Shown here piece after piece: positions 6,301 through 28,152 of a DNA stretch of 64,000 nt (position 1 is the stretch's first letter; each line of letters begins with the position of its first letter). Under the pieces are notes generated by a model, which did no database searches, was not told where the DNA came from, and saw only the letters and a program-made list of their open reading frames with translations. Source of the stretch: Comamonas sp. B21-038 (GTDB taxonomy: Bacteria > Pseudomonadota > Gammaproteobacteria > Burkholderiales > Burkholderiaceae_C). The stretch spans positions 5,076,001 to 5,140,000 of the forward strand of contig NZ_CP092462.1 in the NCBI RefSeq assembly GCF_022387135.1. The letters run 5' to 3'. The translations under genes were made by a program, and so were the position numbers.

Positions 6301-7005
6301 ATGCAGACCGCCGGTATTTCCGCAGAATTGCTCACTCCCAACAGCCGCCACCGCTTTGAGCAGCTGTATGGCGTGGCGTCGCGCAAATCGGTGCTCCCAT
6401 GGAAGGAAGTGCCGCGGGATCGCGCCCAGCTGATTGTGCTGGACCAGGGCATGGCCGATGCGATCTCGTCGCTGGGCAAGGCGCCCTGCGTCGTCTGCAT
6501 CGGACAGGTCAAGACCGCGATGCTCGACGGTGCCACCTGGGTGGGCCGGCTCGATGCGAACTACACCTTGAGCGATCTGATCGACATGTTCGACCGCGCG
6601 GCAGTCTTCCTGCTCGACTGGGATGCGCGCAACAAGGTCATGCGCAAGGAGTCGGAGCAGGCTGCTGCGCAGCCTGCCGCTGCTACCCCACAGGAGTTCC
6701 GCTACCAGCTCAAGTCCTGGGTATCCGTAGGCGCACCTTTCAATACCGGGGCCTGCATCCGCGCGCTGGCCCTGCTGTCGCGCGAACCCGTGTCCATTGC
6801 CCAGCTGTGTCTGCACAGCGGGCTCGATACGATGGTGGCGCGAGGCCTGCTGGTGGAGCTGGGCCGCCGCGGCGTACTGCGCGGCGTCGCGCTTCCGGCA
6901 ATTCCCGCCGCTTCTTCCCCCTCCCATCCCCGCGAGCCGCTACACTCCAAAGGATTGCTCAGCCGTTTAGGGCGATGGATACGAGGGGGAGGTAAGCCGG
7001 GATGA
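6301..7005 (+). CDS. Unknown protein heading the GTPase/Roadblock cassette; receiver-like N-terminus and winged-helix-like C-terminus
   Basis: 234 residues with no family I recognise. Residues 1-120 alternate strands and helices (AQLIVLDQG, PCVVCIG, TWVGRLDANYTLSDLIDMFDRA) in a way that recalls a degenerate response-regulator receiver, without a clear phosphorylatable Asp. An Ala-rich linker follows. Then a segment near residues 155-195 (ACIRALALLSREPVSIAQL, GLLVELGRRGVLRGV) reads like a winged helix. The last 15 residues are basic. It overlaps the GTPase gene by 4 bases (ATGA), so the two are translationally coupled. It may be an input or output partner of the GTPase. Confidence 0.7.
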   Translation: MQTAGISAELLTPNSRHRFEQLYGVASRKSVLPWKEVPRDRAQLIVLDQGMADAISSLGKAPCVVCIGQVKTAMLDGATWVGRLDANYTLSDLIDMFDRAAVFLLDWDARNKVMRKESEQAAAQPAAATPQEFRYQLKSWVSVGAPFNTGACIRALALLSREPVSIAQLCLHSGLDTMVARGLLVELGRRGVLRGVALPAIPAASSPSHPREPLHSKGLLSRLGRWIRGGGKPG

Positions 7006-7568
7006 ACCAAGAAGCAGGCGGAACAGGGCCGCACAAGATGCCGCGCATTGCGCTGTGCGGGCCCATGGGCATTGGCAAGACGACCGCAGTGCGCTCACTG
7101 TGCGGTGCGCTGATGTCCAGCTCCGATGTCCGCAACCTGGATCTGGCGGCCCATAGCAAGGAGCTCACCACGGTCGGCACCGAGTTCGGCGAGATCGATC
7201 TGGGCGGTGGCGAAGTGGTGCAGATCTGCGGTTGCCCGGGCCAGGAACGTTTCAGCTTTGTGCGCCAATGGGTGCTGTCCGTGTCGATGGGTGTGTTCAT
7301 CATGACCGATGTGAACAGCCCCCACAGTCTGGCCGAGACCAACCGCATCCTGGACGAAATCCGGCAGCTGCCGCGCCCACCTGTTGCGCTGGTGCTGAGC
7401 GCACGTCCGGCAACAACACAACAAATTGAAACATTCGCCCAAGGCGTGTATTCTGCGGGCCATGGGGTGATTCCCGTTCTGGAAGCCGATCCACGCGACC
7501 GTGGGCAGCTGCTGGATGCGATGAGCGTCCTTGTTTCCATGCTGTCTCTGCAAAGCGAGAATTCATGA
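7002..7568 (+). CDS. Small Ras-like GTPase (COG2229/MglA-like) with degenerate nucleotide-specificity motif
   Basis: 188 residues. G1/Walker A is GPMGIGKT (20-27), the switch-I-like stretch is TTVGTEFGEI (56-65) and G3 is GCPGQERF (77-84), where the usual Asp of DxxG is Gly, as is common in the MglA/COG2229 group. At the expected G4 position (about 129-138) the sequence is ALVLSARPAT, with no NKxD, so guanine specificity is doubtful. Such proteins act as polarity or signalling switches with Roadblock partners serving as GAPs or scaffolds. Two Roadblock genes follow at once, the first by ATGA overlap. Confidence 0.85.
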   Translation: MNQEAGGTGPHKMPRIALCGPMGIGKTTAVRSLCGALMSSSDVRNLDLAAHSKELTTVGTEFGEIDLGGGEVVQICGCPGQERFSFVRQWVLSVSMGVFIMTDVNSPHSLAETNRILDEIRQLPRPPVALVLSARPATTQQIETFAQGVYSAGHGVIPVLEADPRDRGQLLDAMSVLVSMLSLQSENS

Positions 7569-7963
7569 CTGCATCTCAACCTCTGATCCCTGCCCAGGTC
7601 GTCAAGGCAGGCCAGCAGGCCCTTGATAGGTATATTGGCCCTGTTGATGGTGTACGCGTGGCACTGCTGAGTACGCCCGATGGATTTGAAATTGCGTCGT
7701 TGCGCACGAACAGCGAGCTGCAGCTCAATCGCCTGTCGGCGATGGCGGGATCTCTGATGGCGATGGCTCGTGCCGTGGGCCGGGAGATCAACCACACCGG
7801 CTGCAAGCGGCTGACCTTTGAGACCGAGACCGGCGTGGTCGTGTTCCAGTCGGTCACCTCCGAGTTTCCTTGCATCCTGTGCATGGTGCTCGATACCAAT
7901 GCGATCCTCGGTCGTGTGCTGTGGGCAGCCGCCGAGGTGGGCGCCGAGATGAATAAAGTCTGA
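7565..7963 (+). CDS. Roadblock/LC7 domain protein (MglB-like), first copy
   Basis: 132 residues with the alpha/beta Roadblock layout: N-terminal helix, YIGPVDGVRVALLSTPDGFEIAS, a central helix with SAMAGSLMAMARAVGREI, and the strand pair RLTFETETGVVVFQSV and CILCMVLDTNAILG. In bacteria these dimeric proteins pair with small Ras-like GTPases, as MglB does with MglA. Its ATG overlaps the GTPase stop, which strongly supports a functional pair. Confidence 0.88.
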   Translation: MTASQPLIPAQVVKAGQQALDRYIGPVDGVRVALLSTPDGFEIASLRTNSELQLNRLSAMAGSLMAMARAVGREINHTGCKRLTFETETGVVVFQSVTSEFPCILCMVLDTNAILGRVLWAAAEVGAEMNKV

Positions 7964-7969
7964 CAGCGT

Positions 7970-7999
7970 GGGGCCGTTCCAGGCCCCGGCTGTGGATAA
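7970..7999. other. Hairpin and single DnaA-box-like site between the two Roadblock genes
   Basis: GGGGCC (7970-7975) pairs with GGCCCC (7982-7987). It is followed directly by TGTGGATAA (7991-7999), the complement of a consensus DnaA box. The hairpin has no T-tract, so it may attenuate or merely separate the two genes. The box stands alone and its meaning is unclear. Confidence 0.35.
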
Positions 8000-8068
8000 C
8001 CGCTGGGGCGCCGCACTGGCCGCCTGCAGTGGTCACGATAATCCGCCAGTGTGCAAAGGGGGAGTGAG

Positions 8069-8428
8069 ATGGCATCGGTTCAAGAAGCGTTGACGCAACT
8101 TTTGACGGTCGATGGCGCGATGTGCGCCGCATTGGTCGACAGTGGCAGCGGCATGCTGCTGGGCAGTGCGGGATCCGGTCTGGATCTGGAGCTGGCAGCG
8201 GCGGGCAACACCGAGGTGGTGCGGGCCAAGCTCAAGACGATGAAATCGCTGGGGCTGCAGGACTCCATCGACGACATCCTGATCACGTTGGGCTCGCAAT
8301 ACCACATCATCCGCCCGGTAGCGCAGAAGGAAGGCCTGTTCCTGTACCTGGTGCTGGACAAGCAGCGCAGCAACCTGGCACTGGCCCGGCGCAAATGCGC
8401 GGAAGTGGAAAAACTGGTGACGATCTAG
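8069..8428 (+). CDS. Roadblock/LC7 domain protein, second copy
   Basis: 119 residues from the ATG at 8069, which has AAGGGGGAG about 6 bases upstream; the frame could extend to 8051 without a better site. It has the Roadblock pattern MCAALVDSGSGMLLGSAGSG, a helix with LKTMKSLGL, and the strands DDILITLGSQYHIIRPV and GLFLYLVLDKQRSNLALAR. It diverges from the first copy, so the two may form a heterodimer or serve different partners. It ends the cassette and a strong terminator follows. Confidence 0.85.
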   Translation: MASVQEALTQLLTVDGAMCAALVDSGSGMLLGSAGSGLDLELAAAGNTEVVRAKLKTMKSLGLQDSIDDILITLGSQYHIIRPVAQKEGLFLYLVLDKQRSNLALARRKCAEVEKLVTI

Positions 8429-8483
8429 GTTTTTAAGATCGTTCCAGGCGCTGATACGGCTTTCTGCCGGATCCGGGTCTGAC

Positions 8484-8518
8484 AAGACCGGCCCTGCGTA
8501 TGGCCGGTCTTTTCTTTT
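8484..8518 (+). terminator. Rho-independent terminator of the GTPase/Roadblock cassette
   Basis: Perfect 10-bp arms AAGACCGGCC (8484-8493) and GGCCGGTCTT (8502-8511) with an 8-base loop, followed by TTCTTTT. Confidence 0.9.
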
Positions 8519-25036: not shown

Positions 25037-25145
25037 GTTTGCCTTTCCTACCAAATGTCTCCCATGCCTGGCCCCTACACTGGGTGCCCTATAGGCTAAG
25101 GGGATGGATACCACGCCTGCCATAGGCTTCAGAGACCATAGACGC

Positions 25146-26882
25146 ATGAGCACCAGCACCATTGACGATTTCAGCGACGCAGCCCTGGCCCTTGGGTCCG
25201 GGCGCCGCCCTTTGCTGGGCGAGATGCTGGTGCAGGCCGGCAAGCTGTCGCCGCGCGACCTGGAGCGTGCGCTGCAGGCGCAGCAGGAGATGGGCAGCCT
25301 CATCGGCCAGGTGCTGGTCCAGCTGGGCCTGGTCTCCGAGCCGGATTTGATGCAGACGCTGGCCACCCAGCTGCAGATCCCTTTCACCTTGGGTACGGAT
25401 TTTCCGGCCGAGGCGATCAGCGTTCCGGGCCTGATGCCCGAGTTCCAGCAGTCGCAGCACGTCTTTCCGTTGCAACTGCAAGATGGTGTGCTGGACGTGG
25501 CGATGGCTTCGCCCCAGGATCCGTTCGTCATCAAGGCCCTGCAGATGTCGACCGGTCTGCAGATTCGCCCGCATCTGGCACTGCAGGCCGATATTGAAAA
25601 AGCGCTGCAGGAGCCTGAGCCGGAAGCCGAAGAGGAAGACGGCGATGACATGTTTGGCGACGGCTCCGATGTCGGCGACTTTGTCGAGCATCTGAAGGAC
25701 CTGGCCAGCGAGGCGCCGGTGATCCGCCTGGTCAACAGCATCATCGGCAAGGTGACCGACCTGCGTGCGTCGGACATTCACCTGGAGCCTTTTGACGATG
25801 GCCTGCATGTGCGCTACCGCGTCGATGGCGTGATCCACCCCGGTGAGCTGGTGCCGCCACGCCTGTCCGCGGCCGTAGGCTCGCGTGTCAAGCTGATGGC
25901 GCATCTGGACATTGCCGAGCGCCGGCTGCCGCAAGACGGCCGCATCAAGACCCGCGTCAAGGGCCGTGAGCTCGACCTGCGGGTCTCCACCGTGCCTACT
26001 GTGCATGGCGAGAGCATCGTGATGCGTGTGCTGGACCGCGCCAGCGTGCGGTTGCAGCTGGAAACCATGGGCTTTGCGAAGGACACGCTGTCCAAGTTCA
26101 ACGACCTGCTGGCCCGCCCGCACGGCATTTTGCTGGTGACCGGGCCCACGGGTTCGGGCAAGACCACCACCTTGTATGCGGCGCTGTCCAAGATCGATGC
26201 GCTGGAAAACAAGATCATCACCGTGGAGGACCCGGTCGAGTACCAGCTCGAAGGGATCAACCAGATCCAGGTGCATGCCCAGATCAACCTGACCTTTGCC
26301 AACGCGCTGCGCTCCATCCTGCGCCAGGATCCGGACATCATCATGATCGGTGAGATGCGCGATGGGGAAACGGCGCAGATTGCCGTGCAGTCCGCGCTGA
26401 CGGGTCACCTGGTGCTGTCTACCCTGCACACCAACACCGCTGCCGGTGCCATCACCCGTATGCAGGACATGGGCGTGGAGAGCTACCTGATTACGTCCTC
26501 TGTCAACGGCGTGCTGGCCCAGCGCCTGGTGCGCACCTTGTGCGGCAATTGCAAGGAGGCCTACGAGCCTGGCGAGGAGGTGCGCAAGCGCTCGGGCCTG
26601 GCGCGCTTCAGCGAAGTGGGCCAGCCCATCTACCGTGCGGTGGGCTGCAACGCCTGCCGCCAGACCGGCTACAAGGGCCGTACCGGCATCCATGAGCTTT
26701 TCGTGCTCGATGAGCCGATGCGCAATGCCATCAATGCGGGCAAGGATTCGAACGAGCTGTTCAACCTGGCGGCCAAATCCGGCATGCTGAGTCTGCACGA
26801 GGACGGCCTGCGCAAGGTGGCCGCCGGCATGACCACGTTGGACGAAGTCGCCCGCGTCACCCAGGACCAGATCGATGGCTGA
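25146..26882 (+). CDS. gspE: Type II secretion ATPase GspE
   Basis: 578 residues from the ATG at 25146; a longer start at 25104 is possible but its purine-rich stretch abuts the ATG too closely. The N-terminal T2SSE-N domain contains RPLLGEMLVQAGKL. An ASP-box-like ASDIHLEPF, Walker A GPTGSGKTTT, Walker B DPDIIMIGEMRDGETA and a tetracysteine zinc motif (CGNC then CNAC about 60 residues later) follow. GspE is the cytoplasmic hexamer that drives pseudopilus assembly. It is the first gene of the gsp operon. Confidence 0.95.
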   Translation: MSTSTIDDFSDAALALGSGRRPLLGEMLVQAGKLSPRDLERALQAQQEMGSLIGQVLVQLGLVSEPDLMQTLATQLQIPFTLGTDFPAEAISVPGLMPEFQQSQHVFPLQLQDGVLDVAMASPQDPFVIKALQMSTGLQIRPHLALQADIEKALQEPEPEAEEEDGDDMFGDGSDVGDFVEHLKDLASEAPVIRLVNSIIGKVTDLRASDIHLEPFDDGLHVRYRVDGVIHPGELVPPRLSAAVGSRVKLMAHLDIAERRLPQDGRIKTRVKGRELDLRVSTVPTVHGESIVMRVLDRASVRLQLETMGFAKDTLSKFNDLLARPHGILLVTGPTGSGKTTTLYAALSKIDALENKIITVEDPVEYQLEGINQIQVHAQINLTFANALRSILRQDPDIIMIGEMRDGETAQIAVQSALTGHLVLSTLHTNTAAGAITRMQDMGVESYLITSSVNGVLAQRLVRTLCGNCKEAYEPGEEVRKRSGLARFSEVGQPIYRAVGCNACRQTGYKGRTGIHELFVLDEPMRNAINAGKDSNELFNLAAKSGMLSLHEDGLRKVAAGMTTLDEVARVTQDQIDG

Positions 26883-28152
26883 TTTTGCCTGGCACGCGAT
26901 CAATGCTGCGGGCGAGCAGGTTCGCGGCACTTTCCAAGCGCCTAATGCGGCGGCCGTGCAAAAGCACCTGCGTGCGCAAAAGCTCACGCCGGTGCGCATT
27001 GTCGACGCGGCAGATGCTGCTGCACTGATGCCGGCGGGGACCAAGGCAGCAGGGGCCAAGCCGGCCGCTGCGGCCAGCGCCATTGGCAAGGCCAAGGCGA
27101 CCAAGTCACAAAAGGGCCCGGCCAAGGCCGCTGATGTGCTGGCGATGACCTCGGAGCTGTCGATCATGCTCAAAGCCGGCCTCGCGCTGGACAATGCACT
27201 GCGCGTGCTGATCGACATGGCCTTCAAGGACAGCATGCGCGAGCTGCTGACCGGCGTATTGGAAGCCGTCAAGGGCGGGGTGCCGCTGTCCAAGGCGCTG
27301 ATGGTGCACCAGGAGCTGTTTGGCGATTTCTACATCAACATGGTGCGCTCGGGGGAGGCCAGCGGCCAGATGTCGGCCGTGTTGCAGCGGCTGGTCGAGC
27401 ATCTGGAGCGCCAGCGCGCGCTCAAGGAAAGCGTGGTCTCGGCCACCATCTACCCGATGATTCTGGTGGCGGTCGCGATTCTGTCGCTGATCGCGATGCT
27501 GGGCTTTGTGGTGCCGCAGTTCGAGAAACTGTTCACCGACATGGGGGATGCGCTGCCCACGCCGACCAAGATCGTGATGACCATTGGCCAGGTGTTCCGC
27601 AAGAACGGCTGGGTGGTGTTGCTCGGTGGCGCGGCGGTGGTCTACCTGCTGCGCAGCTGGCTGCGCTCGCCCAAGGGCCGCTTGTGGTGGCAGGGTGTGT
27701 TGCTGCGCATGCCGATTCTGGGGCGCCTGGCGCTCAAGTACCAGCTGACCCTGTATTCGCGCTCGCTGGGCACCTTGCTGGGCAATGGTGTGCCGTTGCT
27801 GACGGCGCTGCATATTGCGACCGATACGGTCAGCAACCGCCTGATCCAGGCGGAGCTGGCCAAGATTCCGCCCATCGTCAAGGAAGGCGGCAAGATGGTG
27901 CAGGCGATGAACACCACGACGGTGTTCGAGCCGCTGGCGGTGAACCTGGTGCGCGTCGGTGAAGAGACCGGGCGCCTGGGCTCGATGATGCTGGAGCTGT
28001 CGAATATATTGAACCGCGAGGTGGAAACCGGCATCAAACGCGCCCTGACGATGATCGAGCCTGTGCTGATCCTCGTCCTGGGCATCATGATTGCCTCCAT
28101 CATTGTGTCGATCCTGATGGGCATTCTGTCCGTCAACGATCTGGCTGCTTAA
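26875..28152 (+). CDS. gspF: Type II secretion inner-membrane platform protein GspF
   Basis: 425 residues. N-terminal segment FAWHAINAAGEQVRGTFQAP, an Ala/Lys-rich insert at about 50-80, then two T2SSF repeats, each ending in membrane spans (ILVAVAILSLIAMLGFVVPQFEKLF, and VLILVLGIMIASIIVSILMGI at the end). The conserved PQFEKLFTDMGDALPTPT is present. It overlaps gspE by 8 bases. Confidence 0.95.
   Translation: MADFAWHAINAAGEQVRGTFQAPNAAAVQKHLRAQKLTPVRIVDAADAAALMPAGTKAAGAKPAAAASAIGKAKATKSQKGPAKAADVLAMTSELSIMLKAGLALDNALRVLIDMAFKDSMRELLTGVLEAVKGGVPLSKALMVHQELFGDFYINMVRSGEASGQMSAVLQRLVEHLERQRALKESVVSATIYPMILVAVAILSLIAMLGFVVPQFEKLFTDMGDALPTPTKIVMTIGQVFRKNGWVVLLGGAAVVYLLRSWLRSPKGRLWWQGVLLRMPILGRLALKYQLTLYSRSLGTLLGNGVPLLTALHIATDTVSNRLIQAELAKIPPIVKEGGKMVQAMNTTTVFEPLAVNLVRVGEETGRLGSMMLELSNILNREVETGIKRALTMIEPVLILVLGIMIASIIVSILMGILSVNDLAA

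Follow-up and report, generated by a model that had tools for sequence, protein, structure and literature searches.

The window analysed here, a stretch of 64,000 nucleotides (nt) from Comamonas sp. B21-038 (contig NZ_CP092462.1, positions 5,076,001 to 5,140,000 of the forward strand), contains a cassette of four consecutive genes encoding a lead protein, a small Ras-like GTPase and two Roadblock proteins, here called C and D (Table 1). This cassette is almost certainly a GTPase signalling operon of the Group 3 MglA type, an identity that rests on gene content, synteny, motifs and predicted folds. The four-gene cassette is not new: the class was described computationally in 2014 by Wuichet and Søgaard-Andersen (PMC4316618), who split the bacterial MglA GTPases into five groups and gave Group 3 as an unknown protein (receiver-like at the N-terminus, with a winged helix-turn-helix at the C-terminus by Phyre2), MglA and one or two MglBs, found in beta- and gammaproteobacteria. 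A preliminary description of this DNA had presented the lead protein as an unrecognised family; it is already in print, as the Group 3 'conserved protein of unknown function' (PMC4316618).

Table 1. Features of the cassette, in window coordinates (aa, amino acids)
Feature	Position	Strand	Basis
Lead protein, 234 aa	6301..7005	+	Open reading frame (ORF) call; a pseudo-receiver and a winged-helix-like domain joined by a linker, then a basic tail
Lead, receiver-like N-terminal domain (about aa 1-118)	6301..6654	+	Predicted alternating strands and helices; weak Foldseek matches
Lead, winged-helix-like domain (about aa 148-200)	6742..6900	+	Profile, Foldseek and hhalign matches
Basic amphipathic C-terminal tail of the lead, aa 217-229	6949..6987	+	Net charge and strict pattern, counted over 66 family members
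MglA-type small GTPase, 188 aa	7002..7568	+	ORF call, Pfam Ras, motifs, hhalign to CvnD
P-loop G1, GPMGIGKTT (aa 20-28)	7059..7085	+	G20, G23, G25, K26, T27 and T28 in 16/16
G3 motif, G-C-P-G-Q (aa 77-81)	7230..7244	+	G77, P79, G80 and Q81 in 16/16
Roadblock/LC7 protein C (MglB-like), 132 aa	7565..7963	+	ORF call, Pfam Robl_LC7, profile and hhalign matches
Protein D (119 aa), a divergent MglB-like Roadblock protein	8069..8428	+	Predicted fold, Foldseek, conserved family
Terminator-like hairpin with T-tail	8484..8511	+	10-pair stem, 55 nt past D

All four reading frames were confirmed as real genes, and the first two junctions are coupled by ATGA overlaps as first described (at 7002 between the lead and the GTPase, at 7565 between the GTPase and C); 105 nt separate C from D. 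For D, the start conserved in the alignment is the ATG at 8069 and not the GTG at 8051. The terminator proposed behind the cassette was recovered as well, and it has the longest stem of the five sites found between 5800 and 9000 (2.2 expected). The promoter-like box proposed ahead of the cassette was not: the sole sigma-70-like match of the scan is at 7426, within the GTPase gene, and 0.8 such matches are expected by chance.

The association of the four genes exceeds chance. With the lead as query, matches were found in eight of 21 related genomes, and the eight loci fetched from these relatives all carry the four genes in identical order (D runs off the end of the locus in L005). In one relative (L007, about 2230-2260) the GTPase frame is interrupted immediately before the P-loop. 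The order was sampled with 150 genomes: the first profile of the lead matched in five of them, that of D in eight and that of the GTPase in 32, a count that includes many short P-loop matches. A search of named genomes with D confirmed at least 562 relatives, and the best 80 loci that we kept (not a random sample) comprise 65 with all four genes, 11 with D only, two without the lead, one without C, and one with C and D only; several of the shorter ones stop at contig ends. A strict test for the same strand and the same order was passed by 64 of the 65 four-gene loci, and in the exception (L118) the lead is present in the operon as two lower-scoring pieces.

We also asked how often the lead stands without the GTPase, a finding that would have spoken against a cassette, and this is mostly not so. 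Across 229 genomes sampled from the whole class, the GTPase was found in 39 (54 places) and D in 13. A lead match lies no more than 800 nt upstream at 40 of the 54 GTPase places, the other 14 including tandem GTPases, contig ends and also spots where the lead simply went undetected. Lead matches at E ≤ 0.001 occur in 69 of the 229 genomes, and because many of these matches span the winged-helix stretch only, adjacency was counted at E ≤ 1e-7, where 27 of 37 lead places are beside a GTPase (10 are not), and at E ≤ 1e-6, where 30 of 43 are. Three of the 10 places without a neighbouring GTPase have the N-terminal domain alone, as part of larger proteins. The idea of a widespread stand-alone lead protein was rejected, as its strict matches are mostly adjacent to a GTPase. 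Because the four kinds of protein occur together so consistently, the compact switch suggested earlier is a fair reading. A second pair of a lead-like and a GTPase gene was found elsewhere in the same genome (locus L037, G000:C1:397500-412500, at 6869-8432).

The cassette is flanked, as had been stated, by a rep-type gene and an AEC permease gene: the former is a UvrD/Rep helicase by Pfam, and the latter is named from the annotation of the syntenic record of Comamonas odontotermitis. On that record (NZ_CP083452.1, locus L216), which is 373 kb long and typed as a plasmid, the cassette is found with the UvrD-family helicase, the AEC transporter and priA.

The GTPase was described from the outset as MglA-type, and it scores above the cut-off of Pfam Ras (PF00071; 25.0 bits, cut-off 21.6), while its family aligns with one conservon CvnD sequence at an hhalign E-value of 2.2e-25. 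Motifs were counted over 16 family members. PGQ is preceded by C in the window copy and by T in 10 of the 16, the G2 position has T56 and T57 in all 16 (Thr rather than Arg), and the D-x-R of G5 (D163 and R165) is likewise present in all 16; the [NT]K-x-D motif was found in the G4 region of none. Such a degenerate G4 might mean weak or altered nucleotide binding, so that the GTPase would not be a classical cycling switch and the complex would be mainly a scaffold, but the P-loop, the Thr pair, PGQ and D-x-R are kept in every member, and CvnD9, whose G4 is similarly deviant, has GTPase activity (PMC4316618); we consider a scaffold very improbable.

C and D are two divergent Roadblock proteins, as first proposed, C by Pfam and D by a predicted MglB/LAMTOR fold. 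C matches Robl_LC7 (29.7 bits, cut-off 23), its profile matches CvnB5 (3leq, E 2e-10), and hhalign joins it to one conservon CvnB sequence at 96% (E 3.7e-9). D has no match in Pfam or NCBIfam up to E 10; its AlphaFold2 model (mean pLDDT 86.8, pTM 0.81) finds Roadblock, MglB and LAMTOR structures in Foldseek, with a best E-value of 4.9e-7 and TM up to 0.82. The kinship of C and D rests on fold, because hhalign does not join them (5.3%). D is much better conserved than C, with a mean column identity of 77% versus 39%, though in sets with different redundancy filters. The pair D39-G40 of C is invariant (28 of 28), and an Asp-Gly pair was found in none of 30 D sequences in the first turn (between strands 1 and 2; residues 22-30). 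Because the pair is kept in C and missing from the first turn of D, we infer that C is a GTPase-activating protein (GAP) and that D is not.

D is also found outside the cassette. In the same genome two tandem copies of D, apart from the GTPase (locus L038, G000:C1:4924000-4940000, at 6976-8122), adjoin malate synthase G and a pair of a PAS histidine kinase and an OmpR-type regulator. The arrangement recurs in four other loci (L040, L120, L125 and L127) and, without a malate synthase match, in a fifth (L078); the kinase/regulator pair is beside D in five of 15 further loci tested. In one locus (L043, 6503-8104) a BLUF domain (Pfam E 8.6e-19) is fused to D, the D domain being C-terminal in the same open frame. 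Among gammaproteobacterial operons, clusters with PAS proteins were seen in five of 20 loci (e.g. L187, with Pfam PAS_3), and a protoglobin gene in one (L190). In these two and other gammaproteobacterial loci the Group 3-like operons are longer: they include a TPR protein and an extra Roadblock-like protein below the Pfam cut-off, and have neighbours of the PAS, protoglobin or phosphonate-binding type. The neighbour genes and the BLUF fusion of D suggest sensory input to the system.

The lead protein is modelled by AlphaFold2 as two confident domains (mean pLDDT 87.2) whose arrangement is uncertain because pTM is only 0.57. The preliminary description gave it a receiver-like N-terminus and a winged-helix-like C-terminus; AlphaFold2, Foldseek and profile matches agree on this, the receiver match being weak (7c1j, for example, has E 0.031, prob 0.98 and TMt 0.51). 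Receiver positions were assigned by eye from the predicted strands, and they show no conservation of the phosphorylation residues: of 50 homologues (on which all residue counts for the lead were made) 18 have Asp at position 48 and one has Lys at position 86, no Lys was found at 85 or 87 in any, and strand 1 is not followed by a conserved acidic pair. A phosphorylatable response regulator was rejected on these grounds, as the phosphoacceptor Asp, the acidic pair and the Lys all fail to be conserved. Trp34 and Trp140, in turn, are invariant (50 of 50).

The winged-helix fold of the lead is secure and its closest family is not. A family profile (A5) matches SmtB (1r22, E 6.2e-5) at the winged-helix region, Foldseek finds 2yu3 with a probability of 1.00, and the one Pfam match, DprA_WH (17.6 bits, residues 156-187), is below threshold. 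By hhalign the winged helix aligns with DUF742 at 90.6%, compared with 88.6% for MarR domains of the same genome; as controls, 20 column-shuffled DUF742 alignments reach at most 0.6%, and the A6-A8 profiles with the C-terminal half at most 0.3%. DUF742 itself (PF05331) was not found in the genome at E ≤ 0.001, and a single one of the 50 leads matches it (E 0.024). We therefore rejected the lead as a DUF742 protein proper, PF05331 being unmatched in its own genome and the likeness to MarR equally strong.

We propose that the cassette forms a switch in which the lead is an exchange factor or adaptor, C is the GAP and D is a non-GAP input adaptor, a model to which we give a probability of roughly 0.45. 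The gene content, synteny, motifs and predicted folds are given above, and every biochemical role in the model is our inference from them. The GTPase would cycle between GDP and GTP forms, and C, with its invariant Asp-Gly pair, would be its GTPase-activating protein. The lead would load the GTPase as an exchange factor or adaptor, its winged helix being perhaps CvnC/DUF742-like and poorly equipped for DNA; its non-phosphorylatable pseudo-receiver would receive a protein input, and the basic tail would hold it to a surface, perhaps the membrane. D, which lacks Asp-Gly in the strand 1-2 turn and is found beside sensors apart from the GTPase, would be a non-GAP adaptor bringing signals. The role of the lead is drawn by analogy: C and the GTPase are homologous to CvnB and CvnD, and a homologue of CvnC, MfpC, has been described as a guanine nucleotide exchange factor (GEF), while MfpD, a homologue of CvnB, acts as a GAP (PMC13343842).

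Several observations weigh against this model. Receiver domains recur in the Foldseek results for the N-terminal part of the lead, but no match there has an E-value of 0.001 or lower; the DUF742 match is, at the level of sequence profiles, not specific, given the MarR score; D does have an Asp-Gly, at residues 15-16, before strand 1; and in the whole 15-kb stretch around the second lead/GTPase pair of the genome (L037) no Roadblock match was found. The winged helix of the window copy has a net charge of +3 and its helix 3 of +2, so that DNA binding by this copy could still occur, and transcription control is what PMC4316618 suggested for Group 3.

Transcription control is the main rival to an exchange-factor lead. 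In it the lead would be a transcription regulator, the GTPase and the Roadblock proteins controlling a winged-helix DNA-binding output. The layout of a receiver followed by a winged helix fits this, as do the suggestion of 2014 (PMC4316618), the Pfam and PDB profile matches, which are to DNA-binding winged helices (SmtB, MarR_2 and DprA_WH), the 88.6% hhalign score of MarR and the helix-3 charge of the window copy. The family as a whole looks different: the D-x-R wing motif after helix 3 is found in three of 50 leads versus 12 of 13 MarR proteins, helix 3 has a mean net charge of −0.44, AlphaFold2 predicts only one strand past helix 3, and the phosphoacceptor is not conserved. We hold a transcription regulator to be unlikely.

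The C-terminal tail bears on another alternative, that the lead is an effector and not a regulator: the GTP-bound GTPase would recruit it, and its pseudo-receiver and basic tail would relay the signal to a pilus or another envelope machine. Among 66 homologues taken from the D loci, the tail has a net charge of at least +2 in 64, which would suit an effector, and a strict amphipathic pattern is seen in 49; its helical moment, however, is barely above that of shuffled tails (0.63 versus 0.57), and 40 of the 66 exceed their own shuffle mean. The N-terminal domain of the lead alone also opens three larger proteins (in L140, L149 and L152; open frames of 616-686 aa) with no GTPase match nearby, a recurrence that would agree with an effector too. 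No Pfam domain was found at the C-terminal end of these proteins. Two of the three carry a pair of motifs, N-x-S-x-x-G and R-x-x-x-R, reminiscent of PilZ, which would again point to an effector, but Pfam found no PilZ domain in any of the three. Two of them adjoin an ORF that we take to be a CBS/hemolysin-like membrane protein. We rank an effector somewhat below a transcription regulator in likelihood.

A type IV pilus is a possible output of the Group 3 switch. In Snodgrassella, mutation of a Group 3 orphan mglB changed the 'flares' of soft-agar colonies and host colonisation (PMC11112851), and in the literature, which we surveyed largely by titles, this is the only tested function for Group 3 that we found. 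PilM is over the cut-off in 38 of 39 genomes with the GTPase versus 127 of 190 others (p 2e-5; genome sizes and PilM calls were read by eye). Two results run the other way: among genomes of at least 2.1 Mb, PilM is found in 38 of 39 versus 113 of 129 (p 0.125), and Table 2 of a meningococcal mutant collection, covering 20 aggregation and twitching mutants, lists no mgl gene, the presence of the system in that strain being unchecked. Because the significance vanishes once genome size is controlled for, the co-occurrence with pili was rejected as proof.

In the genome studied here, PilT-family genes over the cut-off lie far from the cassette. The PilM match (G000:C1:140216-141245) spans two overlapping frames, so the gene is apparently broken or the assembly in error. 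A type IV pilus gene near the cassette was considered and rejected: the PilB-like match at 25734-26540 of the window belongs to a type II secretion-like ATPase gene (25104-26882; Pfam T2SSE and MshEN), about 18 kb downstream, which is followed by a GspF-like ORF (the two span 25104-28152). The ORFs after the ATPase gene are presumably GspF-like and GspJ/K-like.

Ras-like switches are scarce in bacteria beyond a few model systems, and Group 3 is the commonest kind seen here in beta- and gammaproteobacteria; no biochemistry is described for it in the papers that we found. More tentatively than the switch itself, we suggest that the lead may be a one-protein exchange factor joining a RomR-like pseudo-receiver to a wing-less, CvnC-like helix domain, and that D may be a general sensory plug, connecting the GTPase to redox, oxygen, light and two-component signals through fusion or neighbour genes. 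If this is true, Group 3 would be to proteobacteria what the conservon is to actinobacteria, a single operon encoding GEF, GAP and sensor adaptor, and from so compact an operon it could be seen how switches of this kind receive their inputs. The role of the lead bears, too, on whether the conservon and Group 3 use their winged-helix-like partners for the same task.

Compared with Group 3 MglA systems as published, the cassette shares the order and kind of genes, the receiver-like/winged-helix lead, the two MglB homologues and the beta- and gammaproteobacterial range, along with a single-domain GTPase of less than 240 aa (188 aa here) that has a deviant G4, D-x-R in G5, x-x-PGQ in G3 and Thr in G2. 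The lead adjoins the GTPase and has a variable linker, as described for the class, its receiver part being a weak structural match. The G3 motif reads GCPGQ in the window versus the consensus GTPGQ, and we found no feature that distinguishes this copy from the rest of the class.

The actinobacterial conservon/AGPS systems of Group 2 (CvnA-D; Mfp) share with the cassette a single operon encoding a Roadblock protein, a small winged-helix-like protein and a GTPase, CvnB being homologous to C and CvnD to the GTPase (each compared through one sequence). They differ in having a CvnA-type histidine kinase, of which there is none among the four ORFs of the cassette, whereas the cassette has an extra receiver-like domain in its lead and a second Roadblock protein, D. 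The Group 1 system of Myxococcus (MglA/MglB/MglC with RomR/RomX) shares the MglA-type GTPase and an MglB-type Roadblock protein, D folds like MglB, and a receiver-domain protein is part of its exchange-factor complex (RomR/RomX; PMC9481161). Group 1 proteins (Myxococcus, Thermus) have an intrinsic Arg in G2 and TVPGQ in G3 according to PMC4316618, in contrast to the Thr and xxPGQ of the family in the window, whose partners, unlike those of Group 1, are all encoded in one operon.

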